Source of the DNA: a virus
IMG/VR virus record: IMGVR_UViG_3300000101_000110
Coordinates: 1 to 28,508 of that record
Direction: 5' to 3' (one strand)
Length of the DNA: 28,508 bases
Position numbers and translations under genes: made by a program. Each line of letters opens with the position of its first letter. The first letter of the stretch is position 1. Positions 21,701-28,508 of the stretch are shown here, in pieces. The notes under the pieces were generated by a model. That model worked only from the letters and a program-made list of their open reading frames with translations. It did no database searches and was not told the origin of the DNA.

Positions 21701-22027
21701 ATGGAAAGTATGAAGCTGCCAATTACTGTGATCGGGGTCGTTATACTTCAGATTTCTGGCTTCATCTGGTGGACTGCACAGCAGGCCGTTACCATATCAG
21801 ACTTAGAAGAGTCTGTCACTTCTATGTCGTCGAGCATGGCTATTGCTGACCGCACTAACTTAAAGCGTGATGTCCAAGAGAACGCTGGAGAAATCAGTGA
21901 TCTTTGGGATGATGTTAACGGCTTGGCTTTGAGTATTATGCAGATCAATGAAATAAAGCAGCGGCTCTCGACGATTGAGGTCGAGATGAGGTACATTAAC
22001 CGCGACCATGAAGGGATCAAGAAATGA
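21701..22027 (+). CDS. Small membrane protein with long coiled coil
   Basis: 108 residues. The N-terminal hydrophobic segment (LPITVIGVVILQISGFIWWTA, about residues 5-25) is followed by a long Asp/Glu/Ser-rich coiled coil (ISDLEESVTSMSS ... INEIKQRLSTIEVEMRYI). The layout matches the preceding gene in topology but not in sequence. It overlaps the endolysin start by four bases (ATGA), the strongest sign that it belongs to the lysis cassette. A holin, antiholin or regulator of lysis timing are all possible. Confidence 0.6.
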   Translation: MESMKLPITVIGVVILQISGFIWWTAQQAVTISDLEESVTSMSSSMAIADRTNLKRDVQENAGEISDLWDDVNGLALSIMQINEIKQRLSTIEVEMRYINRDHEGIKK

Positions 22028-22683
22028 GACATCTTGACAGTATCTACGTGCATTGCACGGCAACACGCGCAGAGTGGTGGGAAGACAAACGCTCCAGCGA
22101 GAAAGCTGCTGAGTGTAAGCGATGGCACCTTGATCGAGGGTGGAGCGACATAGGGTACAACTACCTCATAGATCGCGACGGCACTGTAACCGAGGGTCGC
22201 CCCATCGAGAAGACGCCAGCAGCTCAGAAGGGCCACAACACAGGCTCTGTAGCTATTGCACTCTGGGGTGGCCACGGCGGTAATCAAGACGACAGCTTTG
22301 AGGAACACTTTACGCCAGAGCAGGACCGCGCTTTGCGCAAGATGATCGCGCAACTGCGGATGGAGTACCCGTCGATCAAGCGAGTGCGAGGACATAATGA
22401 GGTGAGTGCCAAGCAGTGCCCATGCTTCCAGATCACACCGTGGATGAACAGCGTAGAGGGGAAAAAGAAACCAGCCCGCAAGCGCATCTCGCAGACGAAG
22501 ACAGTCCGCAGTTCTACTGTTGCAAAGCTCGCGACCCTAGCCAGCCCTGCGACGATTGCCACTGTCGGTGGGCTGGAGTGGCAAAAGCTGCTGATCATGG
22601 GCGTGTTCGCTCTGGTAGCGATGATGGCCTTGGGCGTGATTGATTTGGAGCGCCTCAAGAAGTGGGATTTAGGAGACCGCTGA
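22024..22683 (+). CDS. N-acetylmuramoyl-L-alanine amidase endolysin with C-terminal membrane segment
   Basis: 219 residues. Residues 1-145 match the T7-lysozyme amidase family. His10 in YVHCTAT, His124 in GHNEVSAKQCPCF and Cys132 are the zinc ligands; Tyr46 and Lys130 match the catalytic pair. The family cuts the amide between muramic acid and the peptide stem. Unlike the 150-residue T7 enzyme, this one has a basic linker (about 146-165) and a hydrophobic segment at about 186-206 (LLIMGVFALVAMMALGVIDL). A membrane anchor or built-in pore function is suggested. The overlapping TGATG couples it to the spanins. Confidence 0.85.
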   Translation: MRHLDSIYVHCTATRAEWWEDKRSSEKAAECKRWHLDRGWSDIGYNYLIDRDGTVTEGRPIEKTPAAQKGHNTGSVAIALWGGHGGNQDDSFEEHFTPEQDRALRKMIAQLRMEYPSIKRVRGHNEVSAKQCPCFQITPWMNSVEGKKKPARKRISQTKTVRSSTVAKLATLASPATIATVGGLEWQKLLIMGVFALVAMMALGVIDLERLKKWDLGDR

Positions 22684-22919
22684 TGTTTCTGCTGGGTAAG
22701 CTAAAAATTTACGCTGCGCTGCTGGGCGCTGCCGCGATTGCCGTTATCACGGTATACTATCGCGGCAAAGCTGATGGTCGCGGCGACTTGGAGTATGAGA
22801 TCAAAGACGATCGGCTGGATAAACTGCTGACCGCTAAGGAGGTGCAAGATGAATTACAAAATGTTTCTGACGATAGCATTGCTGCCCGCGCTGCTCGCTG
22901 GGTGCGGGACAACGATTAG
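22683..22919 (+). CDS. Inner-membrane spanin (Rz-like)
   Basis: 78 residues from the ATG at 22683, which overlaps the endolysin stop. A GTG seven codons earlier would lengthen the overlap. One hydrophobic segment (KIYAALLGAAAIAVITVYY, about residues 7-25) is followed by a charged helix (EYEIKDDRLDKLLTAKEVQDEL) and RAARWVRDND at the end. The lipoprotein gene is nested over its 3' end, the classic Rz/Rz1 arrangement. Inner spanins join the outer one to fuse inner and outer membranes at lysis, so the host should be Gram-negative. Confidence 0.75.
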   Translation: MFLLGKLKIYAALLGAAAIAVITVYYRGKADGRGDLEYEIKDDRLDKLLTAKEVQDELQNVSDDSIAARAARWVRDND

Positions 22920-23058
22920 CGGTGACACTTACTGTGATTTGTCGAGCAGCATTATGTTTGGCGAGCAGTCAGTGATTGATGACCTTGCGGCGTCTGACCC
23001 GCAACTGCTACGCCAGATCGTGACGCACAACGAGACCCGTCAGGCTATCTGCAAATGA
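22849..23058 (+). CDS. Outer-membrane spanin lipoprotein (Rz1-like)
   Basis: 69 residues. The N-terminus is a lipoprotein signal with the lipobox LLAGC, cysteine at residue 19, so the mature form is about 51 residues. A very good site (AAGGAGG) lies seven bases upstream. Its first 71 bases overlap the inner spanin gene in another frame. The mature part has two more cysteines and a helix (SVIDDLAASDPQLLRQIVTHNE). It is low in proline compared with lambda Rz1. It overlaps the next gene by four bases. Confidence 0.75.
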   Translation: MNYKMFLTIALLPALLAGCGTTISGDTYCDLSSSIMFGEQSVIDDLAASDPQLLRQIVTHNETRQAICK

Positions 23059-24155
23059 CACCTAAGCAGCGCGAGGCTTGGAACCTGCACATCGCGGGTG
23101 TGCGGGGCAGAGAGATTTCTAAGCGGCTGGGCATTAACGAGTCCAGCGTAAGCACTCGACTCAAGAACGCGCGCAAGCACGCTGAAGCGGATGAAGCTAT
23201 CCAAGGCGCTATGCGTGCTGTTGGCATGTCGGACGCTGGCCCGCTGCACTCAGGATGGATCAAGAGCGAGGGCGCTTCCCTTTATTTTCAGATGCCAAAA
23301 GATGCTGGAGGTAATGTCAGCGAGATAGTTCGCGAGGCGTTTGAGGGCATCCCCGCCTGCCCGGCGATCCCAAGCGCTCGCGAGTTCACTGGTGGGCTAC
23401 TCACTGTGTACCCAATATTTGATGCTCACATTGGCATGCGTGCCAGCTCCGAGGAGAGCGGTGAGGACATGGACAACGATATCGCAGAGCGCCGTATCAC
23501 AGGCGGTGTGGGGCAGTGCATTGCATCCTCACCAGCTTCTGAGAAGGCTGTCATCCTGATCGGCGGTGATGCGTTGCACGCTAACGATCAGACAGCGCAG
23601 ACGCCGCAATCCAAGCACGTTCTTGATGTAGCCTCTAGCTTCAGCGAGGCGCTTGACGCTGCCATTCGGACATTCGCGGCCTGTATTGAGATGGCCGCAG
23701 TCAAGCACAGCAGCGTGATCGTGAGCGTCATCCAAGGCAACCATGATCGGGATGCTTTCTTGGCTATTATGTACGCTCTGCGCGAGCGCTACAGAGACAA
23801 CCCGCGCATTGAGGTGCAGCGCAAGGGTGGCGAGTTCTTTGTCATGGAGTGGGGCAAGGTGATGATCGCCTCGCATCACGGAGACAAGGCTAAGGCCGAG
23901 CGGCTCGTGATGCACATGGCTGATGAGTGGGCTGAGATGTGGGGCCGTACTAGACACCGCTTCTACTTCACAGGTCACATGCATCACACAAAGATGCAGG
24001 ACGTTGGCGGCGTGCAAGTGGAGCAGCTTCGCGCCGTTGCGCCGAGGGACGCGTATGCAGCGTCCCACAGCTATTCTTCCCGCTCCGAGATGCAAGCCAT
24101 CACCTACCACAAGGCTAGTGGAGAGGTGAGCCGTGTCAAGGTGGCGCTAGCCTGA
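23055..24155 (+). CDS. Metallophosphoesterase with N-terminal helix-turn-helix domain
   Basis: 366 residues. Residues 1-48 form a LuxR/sigma70-region-4-like helix-turn-helix (TPKQREAWNLHIAGVRGREISKRLG, INESSVSTRLKNARKH). The rest is a calcineurin-type phosphoesterase with all metal motifs in order: DAH (123-125), GGD (170-172), GNHD (228-231), HHG (274-276), GHMHH (307-311). Substrates could be DNA ends, nucleotides or cyclic signals; none can be chosen. It is the last + strand gene, coupled to the spanin by ATGA, and its end overlaps the convergent gene by nine bases. Confidence 0.8.
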   Translation: MTPKQREAWNLHIAGVRGREISKRLGINESSVSTRLKNARKHAEADEAIQGAMRAVGMSDAGPLHSGWIKSEGASLYFQMPKDAGGNVSEIVREAFEGIPACPAIPSAREFTGGLLTVYPIFDAHIGMRASSEESGEDMDNDIAERRITGGVGQCIASSPASEKAVILIGGDALHANDQTAQTPQSKHVLDVASSFSEALDAAIRTFAACIEMAAVKHSSVIVSVIQGNHDRDAFLAIMYALRERYRDNPRIEVQRKGGEFFVMEWGKVMIASHHGDKAKAERLVMHMADEWAEMWGRTRHRFYFTGHMHHTKMQDVGGVQVEQLRAVAPRDAYAASHSYSSRSEMQAITYHKASGEVSRVKVALA

Positions 24156-24524
24156 CGTTTCCTCGTAAAAAGCATCAAGCAGCGTTGACAGAGCCAGCTC
24201 GCACACGTTCACCTTGGATATTGCTGACTGAGCTATGACCCAATTGCGAAACTGCGGGTTTGCCTCTGTTGTATGCAACATAGCCAGCGGCATACTCCCG
24301 TAGTTGATGCCTCGATATGGCGCTCGGCGTGGGGCGGGGTCTCTTTGGTTTATTAAACCTAAATCCTGCGCTTTCCGTACCACACGACTTACCTGCGAAG
24401 CGCTTATGTCTAACTCTTTTCCAATTTGTGTCAGCGTTAAACGATCACTACCCGCAAGGAAGTACAGCGGCTTAACCGCAGCCCAGCGTTCCTCGAAGCT
24501 TAATCTATCTATATCATGTGGCAT
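24147..24524 (-). CDS. Winged helix-turn-helix regulator
   Basis: 125 residues. A DNA-binding domain is evident at about residues 27-57 (DRLTLTQIGKELDISASQVSRVVRKAQDLGLI), of the MarR/ArsR-like winged type. The C-terminal half is a separate domain (FRNWVIAQSAISKVNVCELALSTLLDAF). The ribosome site GGGAGAG is good. It is the last gene of the leftward group and ends inside the final codons of the phosphoesterase gene. It probably controls phage genes, perhaps the switch to late genes, but no target is known. It overlaps the coiled-coil gene by 11 bases. Confidence 0.7.
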   Translation of the reverse strand: MPHDIDRLSFEERWAAVKPLYFLAGSDRLTLTQIGKELDISASQVSRVVRKAQDLGLINQRDPAPRRAPYRGINYGSMPLAMLHTTEANPQFRNWVIAQSAISKVNVCELALSTLLDAFYEETSG

Positions 24525-24708
24525 TGCTCTCTCCCTTTTTTAAGTCCGCCAAAAGTTGTAGCTTGTCTGCGCGCAAGCGGTTTACCCGATCAGTCAGTCG
24601 TTTAATTTCCTCTGCTTGCAGCGCTGATTTAGACTGCCATTTCTTTGCGTTAGCCGCTTCGTTGTTTAAGCTATTTAGAAGGCTGCTGATTGTTACGTTA
24701 GCATTCAC
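24514..24708 (-). CDS. 64-residue coiled-coil protein
   Basis: MNANVTISSLLNSLNNEAANA, then a leucine-zipper-like stretch with charged heptads (EEIKRLTDRVNRLRADKLQLLADLKK). It is probably a short dimeric coiled coil. It overlaps the next gene by 11 bases and its predecessor by four (ATGA), so it is well placed in a coupled group. The function is not recognised. A partner for the adjacent HTH proteins is possible. Confidence 0.55.
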   Translation of the reverse strand: MNANVTISSLLNSLNNEAANAKKWQSKSALQAEEIKRLTDRVNRLRADKLQLLADLKKGESNAT

Positions 24709-24893
24709 AGATCGTATCCTTCCCTGCGCCTGTTGCTCACGAATTTGGTTAAGTCCGATTTTGCTGCCCAGTACCTTTGCTTGGCGCTAGGCGATGCGTC
24801 ATTCTTTAGCTGCGCCTCCATCCAAAAGTCTGATTGTTGACGCAAGAATTTCAACTCCGCTTGCTGTGCTGGCGGCAGTTCTTTTCTGATCAC
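24705..24893 (-). CDS. 62-residue hypothetical protein
   Basis: Helical and charged (PPAQQAELKFLRQQSDFWMEAQLKN ... KQRYWAAKSDLTKFVSNRRREGYDL), with no membrane segment or cysteine. It starts by an ATGA overlap with the gene before it and ends by the same overlap. No family was recognised. The coupled position supports expression. Confidence 0.55.
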   Translation of the reverse strand: MIRKELPPAQQAELKFLRQQSDFWMEAQLKNDASPSAKQRYWAAKSDLTKFVSNRRREGYDL

Positions 24894-25078
24894 TGCTTCT
24901 TCTCCAGTTTAGACAACTCCATCGCGGCGCGAGCGAGCGCGCTGCGGTCTAGCGCGAGGTCAACCGACGCCGCGCTAGACCGCACTCCTGATCCATAATC
25001 CCTCTCTGAGCGCTTGATGGATGCGTCCTTATAGCGGATGTAGTCTTTAAGTGCTTTTATGCGTTCTAGATCAGTCAT
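24890..25078 (-). CDS. 62-residue hypothetical protein carrying a long inverted repeat in its gene
   Basis: The start at 25078 (MTDLERIKALKDYIRYKDASIK) overlaps the preceding gene by eight bases; an upstream in-frame ATG at 25102 would overlap by 32 and is less likely. The product is helical, with a lysine-rich first half and LDRSALARAAMELSKLEKKQ at the end. The middle codons (about GVRSSAASVDLALDR) coincide with the two arms of a perfect 14-base inverted repeat, so the DNA or RNA may have its own role. Function not recognised. Confidence 0.55.
   Translation of the reverse strand: MTDLERIKALKDYIRYKDASIKRSERDYGSGVRSSAASVDLALDRSALARAAMELSKLEKKQ
24943..24984. repeat. Perfect 14-bp inverted repeat within a small gene
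   Basis: The left arm 24943-24956 (TGCGGTCTAGCGCG) is the exact reverse complement of 24971-24984 (CGCGCTAGACCGCA), with a 14-base spacer. It would form a very stable G+C-rich hairpin in either transcript. It lies entirely inside a coding gene, which makes an ordinary terminator less likely. Further CGCGAGCGAGCGCG-like sequence lies just to the left. Confidence 0.85.
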
Positions 25079-25283
25079 TTGTAGCCTCCACGCCCGCGTC
25101 ATACACTGCCGATCTATGCATTAACTCCAAGGCGTATGCCGCTATGGGGTTCAGCGGGCGCTCGCCTTTTTCCCAACGCCGAATCGTGCGTCTACCGTGC
25201 GCGCCCATGTTCCATTCGTCCGCCAGTGCTTGCTGGCTGTAGAAGAGCGCCTTGCGCATTTGCTTAAAATATTCTGGTGTCAT
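25071..25283 (-). CDS. Cro/CI-type helix-turn-helix protein
   Basis: 70 residues. The sequence MTPEYFKQMRKALFYSQQAL, then ADEWNMGAHGRRTIRRWEKGERPLNPIAAYALELM, is a single HTH_3-type domain; the RTIRRWEKGERP segment is the recognition helix with its following turn. The short length is typical for phage Cro-like or early control proteins. The start has GGAGAACAAC upstream and shares a 17-base identical leader with the gene before it. It may act at the palindromes near 25561-25590, but no binding data exist. Confidence 0.75.
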   Translation of the reverse strand: MTPEYFKQMRKALFYSQQALADEWNMGAHGRRTIRRWEKGERPLNPIAAYALELMHRSAVYDAGVEATND

Positions 25284-25295
25284 TGTTGTTCTCCT
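25279..25295. repeat. 17-bp translation-start repeat, copy 1
   Basis: Identical to 25525-25541. Read on the - strand it is AGGAGAACAACAATGAC, covering the ribosome site and first codons of the Cro-like gene. Confidence 0.85.
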
Positions 25296-25298
25296 CTG

Positions 25299-25529
25299 TT
25301 ATCGTTGCAATCCGCGCATCTGCGCCAAGACGTCGCGGTTTTTATACTTGTCGGGCCGCCCGTTCACTAACTCCCAGCCCTTGCGGAGCGCTGTCCTGCG
25401 GACAGTTTCGGAAGTTAACCCGGTTTCTGCGGCTAGTTCGGCGATTGTGCAGTCCCAGTTAACGGAGGTGGCTGCGCGCCATATCACGAACTCGTTAGCC
25501 TTCCTCTTCGAAACCATGTTGTGAGTCAT
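25299..25529 (-). CDS. Small helix-turn-helix protein
   Basis: 76 residues. The part WDCTIAELAAETGLTSETVRRTALRKGWELVNG is a helix-turn-helix with a short C-terminal tail. The start at 25529 (MTHNMVSKRK) has AGGAG nine bases upstream; an internal ATG (MVSKRK) lacks one. It is the first gene after the putative leftward promoter/operator and likely sets expression of this small group. Similar small HTH proteins occur in roseophage and other marine phage early regions (recalled by pattern only). Confidence 0.7.
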   Translation of the reverse strand: MTHNMVSKRKANEFVIWRAATSVNWDCTIAELAAETGLTSETVRRTALRKGWELVNGRPDKYKNRDVLAQMRGLQR

Positions 25530-25541
25530 TGTTGTTCTCCT
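25525..25541. repeat. 17-bp translation-start repeat, copy 2
   Basis: Identical to 25279-25295. It covers the ribosome site and first codons of the upstream HTH gene. The coding parts after it are unrelated, so only the translation start has been duplicated or kept. Confidence 0.85.
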
Positions 25542-25560
25542 GATTGGCGGGCTTCATTGC

Positions 25561-25601
25561 CCTATATACATACATATAGGACCAGTGGTCTTATTATGCA
25601 A
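25561..25601 (-). promoter_or_regulatory. Putative leftward promoter with overlapping palindromic operators
   Basis: Read on the - strand, TTGCAT (25596-25601) and TATATG (25573-25578) are 17 bases apart, a sigma70-like pair. The palindrome GACCAGTGGTC (25580-25590) lies in the spacer. A second palindrome, CCTATAT/ATATAGG with a six-base gap (25561-25580), covers the -10 region and likely start point. Palindromes inside a promoter suggest repression by one of the HTH proteins encoded immediately downstream. It fills the only gap (25542-25603) in the leftward block. Confidence 0.5.
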
Positions 25602-25603
25602 GC

Positions 25604-26062
25604 CTAACTTGAAAAATAGGCTAATATTTCTTTCACATCCTCGGTTGTGATATCACAGCCTTTGCTCAACGCTGTGAGCTTGTCCTCGACTGCCTCAAGC
25701 GTGTCGCGCATATCAATCAGCCGCTGCTGCACGTCTTCGTCTATGCTAGTCACGCGCTCAAACTCTCCGTCGCGCAAGTTCATTTTGTCTATTGTTGTAA
25801 GCATTTCTTTCACCTCTCCTGTGCTACGCGCCACGCCTGCCGTGCCGCCTGTCTTGTTGATCAGATCAATCTGATATGTCTGCAAGGGCGCGACTACGCC
25901 CTTCGCTGCCTTCACCTCAATCGCAACGAAATGCCCGCCAACGCTGGCAATTATATCTGGCGTCCCGTTGCGGTTTGTTGTGATCGTCTTCACCGCCCAC
26001 ACGTCGTCGCGGGCGTTCAGCAATTTTAGAATTGCCTTCTGGATGCTGCTCTCAGACTGCAC
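25604..26062 (-). CDS. VRR-NUC-type nuclease with coiled-coil C-terminal extension
   Basis: 152 residues. The first 85 form a PD-(D/E)xK nuclease of the VRR-NUC kind: Glu4 in SESSIQKAI, then T-P-D (Asp36), then EVK (Glu49, Lys51) and Gln61. Members act as Holliday-junction-like or flap nucleases. The remaining 65 residues are a charged helical extension (EVKEMLTTIDKMNLRD ... TLEAVEDKLTALSKG) not needed for that fold. It overlaps the helicase gene by 11 bases, so the two may work together. It is the last gene before the leftward promoter-like gap. Confidence 0.8.
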   Translation of the reverse strand: MQSESSIQKAILKLLNARDDVWAVKTITTNRNGTPDIIASVGGHFVAIEVKAAKGVVAPLQTYQIDLINKTGGTAGVARSTGEVKEMLTTIDKMNLRDGEFERVTSIDEDVQQRLIDMRDTLEAVEDKLTALSKGCDITTEDVKEILAYFSS

Positions 26063-27239
26063 GCAACCTCCTGTAATTTTTCAGCGTGAAGTCGAGCTTC
26101 TTGCTGACTGCCGTATACACATGCTCGCTTACGCCACCGTCGGTCACGATGTGATTGACCACAGCGTCTGTGCGCTTGTTGAGGTTCACGCCTCGGTCAC
26201 GCCGCTGCACGAATTTAGCGCCGCTGTAGTCGCTGTTCACGATCACGAAATGCGCGAAGTCGGCGAGGCTCACGCCCTCGGCATGGGCAACGCTGGAAAA
26301 TATAGACGCCTTCGGGAAGTGCTTATCCAGCTTCATGCGGGTGCTGCGGAAGTGCGCCATCAGCGCCAGCCCTTCGCTGTCGCCCCACGTCTTCTTAATG
26401 TAGTCGATCACCTCCGTGTTCGGAAGGTCGATCAACTGCTCGTCCACCATCACAGCGCCAGCCTCAATCTGGTGGATGGCTACCCGCTCGGCCATGTCAC
26501 TCTCCGCAGCGAACACAACACCGGGGGCGATTGACGCCACCTTGTCCCGCTGGATCGTGGCGATCAGCCCTTTCGTGGCCGCTCTAAGTTCAACTTTGTG
26601 GACCTTATCCACTGCCTTGTGCGTGATGCCCGCTTGGTCTTGCGTCAGGGTAATTATGTAAGGCTCTAGGCGATCCAGCAGTTCGGGACGGGCCTTCTTA
26701 TACTGCTCAACCCAGCGCCCGTTTATGCGTATCTGCGAGGACACGCCCCACGCTCGGAAGAACTCGTAGAAGTTCTTGTAGCGTAACGGCGACCTCTTAG
26801 AGAGTGCGAACTGGTAGTATAGCTGCAAGAGGCTTTCAGTTGACGGCGTGCCTGTCATCAATAGCACAGGCTTATCCCAAGATATTCGGCGGAGGTGCTT
26901 CCAGCGCTTAGTGGGCTTGCCGGGGCGGCTGATCGCGTGGCTCTCGTCAACCACGACAAAGTCGAAGTCGTCCGCGTGGAGTTTGGCGCACTGCTCGTAA
27001 TTCGTGACTGTCCCGTCGCCTAGCGAGAACCTCACCGCGTCCACTTCCGACCACCACCCCTTGATCGCCGCCTTCTTGGTGACGATCAAGGGGCGCTTCG
27101 CGCCGAGTAGGTCAAGCGTGCGTAAGGCGGTGCGGGTCTTACCCGTCCGCATCTCACCTTGGAGGAGGCATATGCCCTTGTCCTTTACGACTGCCGCTAC
27201 CTTGTCCGACGTCTCTATCTGGTGTGGCAGGTAGGTCAT
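26052..27239 (-). CDS. SNF2/DEAD-like superfamily 2 helicase
   Basis: 395 residues from the ATG at 27239, which overlaps the exonuclease stop by four bases. An in-frame ATG at 27272 would overlap by 37 bases and is rejected. Walker A is GEMRTGKT (28-35), Walker B DESH (98-101), motif III TGTP (129-132), and a late QRRDRGVNLNKRTD segment resembles motif VI. The short SNF2-type layout is common in phage replication blocks. It would remodel or unwind DNA beside the polymerase, exonuclease and VRR-NUC nuclease. Confidence 0.85.
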   Translation of the reverse strand: MTYLPHQIETSDKVAAVVKDKGICLLQGEMRTGKTRTALRTLDLLGAKRPLIVTKKAAIKGWWSEVDAVRFSLGDGTVTNYEQCAKLHADDFDFVVVDESHAISRPGKPTKRWKHLRRISWDKPVLLMTGTPSTESLLQLYYQFALSKRSPLRYKNFYEFFRAWGVSSQIRINGRWVEQYKKARPELLDRLEPYIITLTQDQAGITHKAVDKVHKVELRAATKGLIATIQRDKVASIAPGVVFAAESDMAERVAIHQIEAGAVMVDEQLIDLPNTEVIDYIKKTWGDSEGLALMAHFRSTRMKLDKHFPKASIFSSVAHAEGVSLADFAHFVIVNSDYSGAKFVQRRDRGVNLNKRTDAVVNHIVTDGGVSEHVYTAVSKKLDFTLKNYRRLRAV

Positions 27240-28072
27240 AGGAACGGGTTCTTCGGTACTGAGATCGTCCATGTGCCTTCGCTTTGCTTGCGGTACTCCT
27301 CAAGGTCAATGACTGACTTGGTCGCCGCCTTCTTGTAGTCATACGTGACGCGCGGCTTGCCCTTGGTCAGCTTGAAGTCGCCAGCCGTCAGGCTCTTGTC
27401 GCTGCTGTGTTCAATCAGACCCTTCTTGATCTCGTCCATTTCATCTTTCGCCCGCTCGGTCTCGGCCTTGAGCTTAGCGTAACGCTGGAACAGCTCCATG
27501 ACAGCCCCGTTGTTCGACATGTCGGCCACCTCTGGCACCTCCATCTCGTCGAACCGCGTCCAAGCCTCCGACACCCGCTGCATGAACGTGTAGTCAAGCT
27601 CGATCAGGCGGGACACCGCGATATCTTCTTCTTTGGGACTGTAGGCGAAGATGTAGCCGTACTTAGCAGGGCTGCAATACAACTGCTGCTGAACCTGCGC
27701 GTAATAATATTCGGGCGTGATACCGTCCCGCAGATCCCGGTATGTGCGATCCGACACCTTCAGCTCGACCAATATGTCACCAGCGATTCCGTCGAGGCTC
27801 GCCATGTAGTCACCGTTCGCCCAGCACTCGTCCTTGAAATCACGCGCGAAGTAGTCACTAGCATATTGGCGCACCAAATCTTCGAGGTCGTGACCTTGCT
27901 TCATCGCGGCGGAATAATACTGTTGCTTGACGCCCGCCTTGATCAGCTTGAAATCAGCGATAGACGTGAACGGGCTTATGCCCAGCACAATAGCCGCCTC
28001 GCTGGCGGTGCGGTACTTCTTGCGCGCGTCCAGCCACTCTTGGCTGTTCTGTTCGAGGTGTAGTTGTTCCAT
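27236..28072 (-). CDS. YqaJ/lambda-type exonuclease
   Basis: 278 residues. The N-terminus has QNSQEWLDARKKYRTASEAA, then GHDLEDLVRQYA, SLDG (Asp94), ELK (Glu103, Lys105) and QVQQQLY (126-132), the motifs of the phage recombination exonuclease family, a PD-(D/E)xK fold. The C-terminal 80 residues hold a coiled coil and a basic strand segment. The family degrades one DNA strand from double-strand ends for recombination or packaging. No clear annealing partner is visible here. Its start overlaps the polymerase stop by one base (TGATG). Confidence 0.85.
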   Translation of the reverse strand: MEQLHLEQNSQEWLDARKKYRTASEAAIVLGISPFTSIADFKLIKAGVKQQYYSAAMKQGHDLEDLVRQYASDYFARDFKDECWANGDYMASLDGIAGDILVELKVSDRTYRDLRDGITPEYYYAQVQQQLYCSPAKYGYIFAYSPKEEDIAVSRLIELDYTFMQRVSEAWTRFDEMEVPEVADMSNNGAVMELFQRYAKLKAETERAKDEMDEIKKGLIEHSSDKSLTAGDFKLTKGKPRVTYDYKKAATKSVIDLEEYRKQSEGTWTISVPKNPFL

Positions 28073-28508
28073 CAGTCGTCTCCTAGTGTGTAGATACAGT
28101 TCTCAAGCGCGTCCGCGCTCTTCAGGTCGTGGGCGACGCCCACCTCAACAGGCATAGTAATGCCGCGTCGATTTAGTGGCGCTCTCTGCCAAGCGTACTC
28201 CATCGCCGCCTTCATAGCGGCGGCTGCGGGCTTGTAGATGCGCGGGTCGTTCGGTGCCTCGACAACATAACTGTCGTGGATGAAATTGATCAGGGTCGCC
28301 CCGTCTGGTAGAGTGTCGCTGATGCGGTGCAGAGCAAGGCGCGCAACCTCCGCGCCCGCCCCTTGGTTTTCAATCGACAGGTGGTCGGTCGACCGCTTGC
28401 TGGTGTAAGGCCGCCCGTGGGGTGTTTGGTGCGGCCAGCCCATCTCGTGGCGGGTGAAGCCCTGTTTCTGCCACTCGGCAATGCCGGGGAACGCCTCAAG
28501 CCACTTCT
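28072..28508 (-). CDS. polA: C-terminal part of a family A DNA polymerase (runs off the window)
   Basis: The frame is open to the window end and gives about 144 residues. The visible part has FPGIAEWQKQGF, then PHGRPYTSKRSTDHL, then ENQGAGAEVARLALHRI, and LINFIHDSYVVEAPND, which carries motif C of the polymerase palm. The catalytic H-D pair is followed by serine rather than the usual glutamate (HDS). This form is known in some phage polymerases. The fingers, most of the palm, and any exonuclease or fused domain lie outside the window. It leads the replication block. Confidence 0.8.
   Translation of the reverse strand, partial: KWLEAFPGIAEWQKQGFTRHEMGWPHQTPHGRPYTSKRSTDHLSIENQGAGAEVARLALHRISDTLPDGATLINFIHDSYVVEAPNDPRIYKPAAAAMKAAMEYAWQRAPLNRRGITMPVEVGVAHDLKSADALENCIYTLGDD

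Follow-up and report, generated by a model that had tools for sequence, protein, structure and literature searches.

A recurring promoter-dyad-hairpin leader, linked to a small helix-turn-helix gene, ahead of a variable cassette of small phage genes

The locus described here, a cassette of six small genes (g1 to g6) with its leader, lies in the virus record IMGVR_UViG_3300000101_000110, of which positions 1 to 28,508, the whole stretch of DNA that was analysed, are referred to as the window. Several described systems combine a promoter, a regulator or a stem-loop in comparable ways. Aca2 is reportedly a dual DNA- and RNA-binding regulator that recognises a promoter dyad and an RNA stem-loop near the ribosome-binding site, and the PeSL cassettes of T4-type phages are said to join a portable promoter to a terminator-type stem-loop at points of gene shuffling, with no linked dedicated regulator. 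In the Aca families, a conserved inverted repeat lies within the core promoter, which is repressed by the cognate Aca (PMC9410906); Aca10, represented by PDB entry 7XI5, has 65 residues (PMC9410906 and PMC9410881). The SAS/ESAS elements of cluster K mycobacteriophages (GGGATAGGAGCCC) occur in many copies per genome and have a proposed role in translation initiation, about half of the SAS repeats having inverted repeats upstream (PMC3203893). In archaeal viruses, a conserved regulatory sequence with a strong promoter flags anti-defence candidates and Aca-like regulators (PMC11065993).

Compared with these systems, the six genes of the window probably constitute a mobile accessory operon on a portable, self-contained promoter, which is auto-repressed by the product of g2 and acr-aca-like in its working. 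As in acr-aca operons, a small helix-turn-helix (HTH) protein shares the operon with variable small genes and an inverted repeat is placed inside the core -35/-10 promoter, the dyad being imperfect at many sites, whereas the hairpin in the leader is a part of the present unit and the cassettes here can be longer. The combination of a portable promoter and a stem-loop at shuffled genes is shared with the PeSL cassettes, in contrast to which the stem in the window is not followed by a T run and a dedicated regulator, g2, is linked. Like SAS/ESAS, the leader hairpins are short repeats of the GGG...CCC type that precede genes of various families, but their sequence is another one, and exact copies are present in 21 of 25 records, at one to four per record; the available SAS passages describe no linked regulator (PMC3203893). 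The work on conserved regulatory sequences differs in that it concerns archaeal viruses and promoters (PMC11065993). The components of the leader are as follows.

25596-25601, minus strand: -35-like box TTGCAT, its position conserved across 32 distinct sites
25578-25592, minus strand: putative operator, a dyad (AAGACCACTGGTCCT) with 6 of 7 pairs that occupies the 17-nt spacer of the promoter
25573-25578, minus strand: -10-like box TATATG, from the comparison of relatives
25549-25562, minus strand: GGGCAATGAAGCCC, a potential RNA hairpin at the 5' end, 19 nt ahead of the g1 start
25537-25541, minus strand: Shine-Dalgarno sequence AGGAG of g1, from the sequence

The 74-bp gap before g1 thus holds a sigma-70-like promoter (TTGCAT-17-TATATG), a palindrome that fills its spacer and of which the window has no other copy within 3 mismatches, and then GGGCAATGAAGCCC. 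Promoter, dyad and hairpin are conserved at 25549-25601 in the comparison of relatives, which bears out the promoter-like site proposed for the cassette in the preliminary description. Across 32 distinct sites, a common layout is observed that consists of a -35-like box, a 17-nt spacer with the dyad, a TA-type -10 box, 5-6 nt, TATA or CATA, and GGGC...GCCC, after which come the ribosome-binding site and the start codon; the TTG of the -35 box is offset by one base in 4 of the 32. The gap of the window is largely common to loci L018 and L020, despite the different first gene of L020. A T7-like phage promoter (TATAGGG) was set aside because the element has a single exact match in the window, where three copies are found within 3 mismatches and 1.6 would be expected, and because -35/-10-like boxes stand at a fixed distance in relatives. 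Two other readings of the hairpin were rejected, namely a terminator, the stem in the window having no T run behind it, and a conserved mini-open reading frame from the AUG in its loop, whose frame and stop vary between sites when compared by eye. Single-strand folding of four leaders gave z values of -0.8 to -2.7, which is not decisive, and an Rfam search returned one chance-level match on the other strand. The literal hairpin sequence was found in no paper of the literature searched, and searches on roseophage promoters and operators gave nothing relevant by title among the matches listed.

This leader, the main signal of the locus, is linked with g2. The exact 18-mer TATAGGGCAATGAAGCCC, the core of the leader, is present in 33 IMG/VR contigs (the reversed 18-mer in 0), and a relative of g2 follows within 1 kb on the same strand in 25 of the 27 contigs with at least 1 kb of room, compared with 4.8% for random positions in the same loci; the remaining six contigs have less than 1 kb downstream, with g2 visible in two. 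The two misses are L029 and L039, and as the L039 contig encodes g2 elsewhere, its site could be regulated in trans. At the level of whole records, g2 is encoded in 20 of 21 hairpin-bearing ones. When loci were retrieved by protein, the promoter pattern or the hairpin was found within 1.2 kb of 24 of 26 g2 loci of at least 55% identity versus 0 of 19 below (L081 counting among the 24 solely via a pattern match 1.1 kb away), the misses being L064, where the leader precedes a first, truncated g2 copy, and L079, the L006 contig, which has none. In bacterial genome contigs, the leader unit stands at 3 of 5 g2 relatives of at least 55% identity versus 0 of 26 below; the three best matches with the unit come from Rhodobacteraceae, Verrucomicrobiales and Alteromonadaceae bins and are possibly phage contigs, one hairpin being off by one base.

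A second g2 subfamily (B) was searched with its own profile, and GGGCAA(T/C)GNNGCCC was found at most 1.1 kb upstream of 31 of 35 loci of at least 54% identity versus 7 of 31 below, 4 of these 7 being already known subfamily-A loci. This pattern was widened after the result of a palindrome-seeded promoter search was known, which was too strict (7 of 35 and 3 of 31 before B-type g2, null 1.9%) and was replaced by the hairpin search. Nine of the 35 subfamily B contigs had already been found by the 18-mer; among the 26 new ones, determined by hand comparison of contig names, 22 have the hairpin. The hairpin is not needed for the g2 link, because L021, L060 and L080 lack it and have retained promoter, dyad and g2.

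Over 34 distinct operators, a mean of 5.26 of 7 dyad pairs are complementary, compared with 4.80 when the right halves are re-dealt, a value reached in 121 of 50000 shuffles; the L174 and L204 operators, found because they are palindromic, were excluded from this final test, and their inclusion gives 26 of 50000. In the 32-row alignment, register 0 beats every slide (85.5% versus at most 60.3% pairing). Diverged operators can be perfect palindromes of other sequence, as in the cultured Paracoccus phage Pkon1 (AGCGCCATTGGCGCT), L108 (AGGGCATTATGCCCT) and L034 (AGGCCCAATGGGCCT). Furthermore, operator distance tracks g2 distance over 34 distinct pairs, with a Mantel r of 0.37 (1 of 20000) and, given the -35/-10 flanks, of 0.33 (4 of 20000), a correlation behind part of which common descent may stand. 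As a separate observation, Ruegeria phage DSS3-P1 (L103:3619-3845) has a near-palindrome, AGGGTCCAAATGGACCT, upstream of an operon that encodes two small regulators in tandem; the locus lacks the hairpin and may be a distant version of the unit.

It was also considered that the leader serves chiefly as a conserved boundary for recombination or as a start-associated translation signal, in which case the g2 link would reflect hitch-hiking in related genomes. The SAS repeats of mycobacteriophages offer a precedent (PMC3203893), and the start-codon distance is kept in the 24 of 86 distinct hairpin contexts that are without promoter. However, L021, L060 and L080 hold promoter, dyad and g2 without the hairpin, operators diverge with g2 and their arms covary, and we regard this explanation as very improbable.

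The stem of the hairpin is invariant across the 32 sites and covariation is consequently uninformative. The 86 contexts, collected with a looser pattern that may hold a few chance matches, comprise 56 behind promoter and dyad, 24 without promoter, and 3 each with promoter only or dyad only. The distance from hairpin to start codon has a median of 19 nt with promoter and dyad and of 20 nt without promoter, and it falls within 16-24 nt in 50 of 56 and 21 of 22 cases, respectively; a role at the RNA level is favoured because both groups keep an equal distance. The Shine-Dalgarno sequence lies outside the hairpin, which is best read as travelling with ribosome-binding sites and would adjust the translation or the stability of the following gene. 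Before g2 or at junctions of stacked genes (L020 upstream of 10441, L006 upstream of g2, L038, L071 and L106), a second hairpin, GGGGCTTCGRCCCC, was noted between cistrons.

A more elaborate scheme, conceivable though rather unlikely, has g2 founding a new Aca-like family that governs an accessory regulon among phages of the Rhodobacterales and neighbouring groups, where binding to the palindrome would stop transcription and binding to the GGGCAAUGNNGCCC stem-loop before single genes would stop translation. The present hairpin departs from the reported Aca2 system in that it stays constant where the operator changes (Pkon1, L034, L107) and also precedes internal genes.

The six genes follow a VRR-NUC nuclease gene at the end of the replication block and have the following coordinates.

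25299-25529, minus strand: g1, 76 residues, HTH-like fold; variable first-gene slot, with relatives in L018, L008 and L023
25071-25283, minus strand: g2, 70 residues, small XRE-type HTH protein; candidate auto-repressor
24890-25078, minus strand: g3, 62 residues from ATG 25078, helical by sequence, with a conserved GVR..S.DLA motif
24705-24893, minus strand: g4, 62 residues, two-helix hairpin, 81-87% identity in five relatives
24514-24708, minus strand: g5, 64 residues, coiled-coil by sequence
24147-24524, minus strand: g6, 125 residues, MarR-type winged HTH plus an exchangeable C-terminal domain

Protein relatives of all six were found in other virus contigs (tblastn), and they are therefore genes rather than chance open reading frames. 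The preliminary description had reported that all joins but one overlap; this is confirmed when g3 is started at the ATG at 25078, which is served by a Shine-Dalgarno sequence, and not at 25102, the g1/g2 join being a 15-nt gap and the g2/g3, g3/g4, g4/g5 and g5/g6 overlaps amounting to 8, 4, 4 and 11 nt. The window is a linear record of a tailed, marine-type phage, in which the late genes are transcribed rightward, and the end of a DNA polymerase (named from its position and relatives rather than from a family match), a YqaJ exonuclease, a helicase and the nuclease leftward; the end of g6 abuts a rightward HTH/phosphoesterase exonuclease. The latter (23055-24155) was observed to have an N-terminal HTH resembling sigma-70 region 4 (Pfam 27.9 bits, cut-off 25.7). 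A palindrome inside g3 (24943-24984, a 19-nt inverted repeat of 89% with a 4-nt loop) was dismissed, as it is not conserved in the DNA of relatives. No megablast match was obtained for positions 22000-28508 among 50,697 phage records.

Three HTH proteins and three short helical or coiled-coil ones had been proposed, with no known family for any. The HTH assignment is firm for g6, which exceeds the Pfam MarR_2 cut-off (36.1 versus 27 bits), and close for g2, which falls slightly below that of HTH_3 (22.8 versus 23 bits) while its relatives L049 and L101 pass (26.0 and 29.2) and L058 is just below (22.9). For g1, all family matches are sub-threshold, and its AlphaFold model shows HTH-like helices, with a pLDDT (predicted local distance difference test) of 82-88 for the block of residues 11-50 and a mean of 70.9, for which a fold search of the PDB gave no match at E<0.001. 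Of the remaining proteins, g4 is modelled as a confident two-helix hairpin (pLDDT 88; none at E<=0.001 in BFVD), while g3 and g5 are helical or coiled-coil as judged by sequence only. Searches of family libraries returned no known family for g3, g4 and g5, so the claim of novelty stands for these and less so for g2 and g6. Neither g6 nor g4 matched cultured phages at E 0.1. The identity of g6 is about 78-84% in L014 and L015, whose surroundings differ, versus 43-44% in L020 and L006, and g6 has therefore been exchanged. Its C-terminal part seems, by alignment, to recur without the winged HTH (L021:5592-5837 and L010:5883-6116), and g6 may accordingly consist of two exchangeable domains.

The identity of g2 bears on two further explanations. 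It could be a Cro/CI-like component of a switch for lysis-lysogeny or timing, repressing or activating the leftward programme with the small genes as passengers: its best sequence match in the PDB is lambda repressor (E 0.0099), it matches phrog_14076 ('transcriptional regulator') in PHROGs, and Pkon1 derives from a prophage according to the available passages of its paper. This is improbable in our view, as the operator pattern and an operator-like copy within 3 mismatches each occur just once in the window, and the unit is located where the leftward block ends or in the midst of late genes rather than at a divergent early switch. Alternatively, the operon could be auto-regulated in the manner of a toxin-antitoxin system, the first gene encoding the toxin and g2 an HTH antitoxin that binds the promoter dyad; toxin-antitoxin operons also carry promoter dyads, and the g2 proteins of subfamily B and Pkon1 show similarity to the HTH of MqsA-type antitoxins (E 5e-6 and 5e-7, under the curated cut-off). 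It is likewise doubtful, since the first genes form 29 clusters, those tested having no Pfam or informative NCBIfam match, and g2 is 59-72 residues long in most loci, without an extra toxin-binding domain.

Consistent with a mobile accessory operon, the genes behind the leader are variable. The 29 clusters (blastp E 1e-3, single linkage) derive from 52 hairpin-led open reading frames, of which several are truncated by contig ends and the one selected for L108 was probably read in the wrong frame. In the sibling L020, whose helicase is 89% identical, a pentapeptide-repeat protein (NCBIfam) replaces g1, g2 is present in two copies and an extra gene, which we take to encode a SleB-like hydrolase, is inserted, giving the order nuclease, pentapeptide-repeat protein, g2, g2, g3, hydrolase, g4, g5, g6, exonuclease. 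Locus L006 has g2, g4, g5 and g6 behind other genes, the examined fragments of L007, L008 and L012 hold no g2, and stacked units with leftover hairpins are seen in L038, L071 and L106. The second promoter copy of G015 (L137:5700-5800), with no g2 nearby, has the hairpin, the ribosome-binding site and the start codon in tandem duplicate. The cassette is hence not a fixed set, and the loss in close relatives that the preliminary description had named as counter-evidence occurs for single genes, which we read as accessory status and not as lack of function. Its interpretation as a whole is partly supported, the control cassette behind its own promoter being well supported and now recognised as a widespread promoter-dyad-hairpin unit tied to g2.

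The unit also occurs in varied phage types and positions. The portal protein of the window is matched in 7 of 25 records at 53-94% identity and is absent from the complete Pkon1 record, an eighth match (31% over 52 residues) having been disregarded and most other records being fragments. The unit is placed as in the window in G016 (37.9 kb, portal 94%), whereas in G003, G004, G012 and G014 the hairpin stands beside the portal gene on the opposite strand, not at the end of replication. The cassettes of G016 and L010 presumably encode a DNA cytosine methyltransferase, judging from its motifs, which together with the pentapeptide-repeat protein of L020 would fit an anti-defence role. A protein of 158-172 residues, presumably of OB-type plus winged-helix architecture, was seen to recur in the same slot (L023:4068-4568, L008:3295-3813 and L007:4200-4676). 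In cultured phages, the whole unit is carried by Pkon1 as TTGACA-ACTAGCGCCATTGGCGC-TAAATC, the same hairpin, a small gene and then the XRE gene, moron-like between endolysin and holin and antiparallel to both; the available passages of the Pkon1 paper name other genes, not p71 or p72. A blastn search of cultured phages with one leader (E up to 10) matched 44 records, the best at E 0.007 and none covering 80% of the query.

Several observations weigh against a self-contained, auto-repressed promoter of the acr-aca kind. A generic sigma-70 consensus scan found no promoter on the cassette strand, its two hits both lying on the plus strand (shuffled mean 2.9). The g2 relatives L109 and L114 of bacterial genomes (56-57%) have neither promoter nor hairpin, L006/L079 carries g2, g4, g5 and g6 without either, and L029 has the promoter and no g2 in its 21-kb record. 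The retrieval sets overlap, their members are related, some closely, and kinship can inflate the shuffle and Mantel tests. With respect to symmetry, the most frequent operator (AGGGCCAGATGTCCT, at 11 of 39 sites) forms an imperfect dyad with 4 of 7 pairs, and in the 32-row alignment neither pairing (85.5% versus 85.8% shuffled) nor covariation (0.065 versus 0.059) exceeds the shuffles; a set of 25 operators gave a weak signal (981 of 20000, and 1170 of 50000 after the L035/L057 register had been moved by one base on inspection). Among Aca proteins of solved structure, g2 is weakly similar to Aca10 (PDB 7xi5, E 0.088; the same comparison gives YdiL at E 0.73), no Aca-named match is among its NCBIfam matches, and the payload proteins tested matched no known Acr or anti-defence family in libraries that hold few of them. 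Because of the weak Aca10 similarity and the missing Acr match, the operon is called acr-aca-like in working and not a proven member.

In the mechanism that we propose for the mobile accessory operon, host RNA polymerase would start transcription just upstream of GGGCAATGAAGCCC, and the g2 protein, whose gene is usually one of the first, would occupy the palindrome between -35 and -10 as a dimer and shut the promoter off, so that the first genes would be expressed in a burst before auto-repression sets in; g2 could also act in trans on further promoter copies of the same genome. The unit would move between phages by recombination and acquire new small genes, so that promoter and g2 are retained and the first genes change. 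By analogy with acr-aca loci, the payload most likely consists of anti-defence or host-interaction genes, and early accessory or anti-defence functions would be in keeping with small first genes that vary behind a promoter that recurs. The mechanism is directly testable, because the cultured Pkon1 carries the unit.

Six unannotated small genes thereby become one member of a recurring, recognisable unit. Its leader (the spacer dyad and GGGCAATGNNGCCC) and g2 can serve as bait for variable phage genes that are probably expressed first and held under control, an approach that parallels the route from Aca proteins to anti-CRISPRs. To our knowledge, few anti-defence genes are known for phages of this kind. 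If the control by g2 at two levels were true, the variable leader-led genes, including those of the window, would represent a large untapped reservoir of anti-defence proteins that could be found directly by the leader motif.

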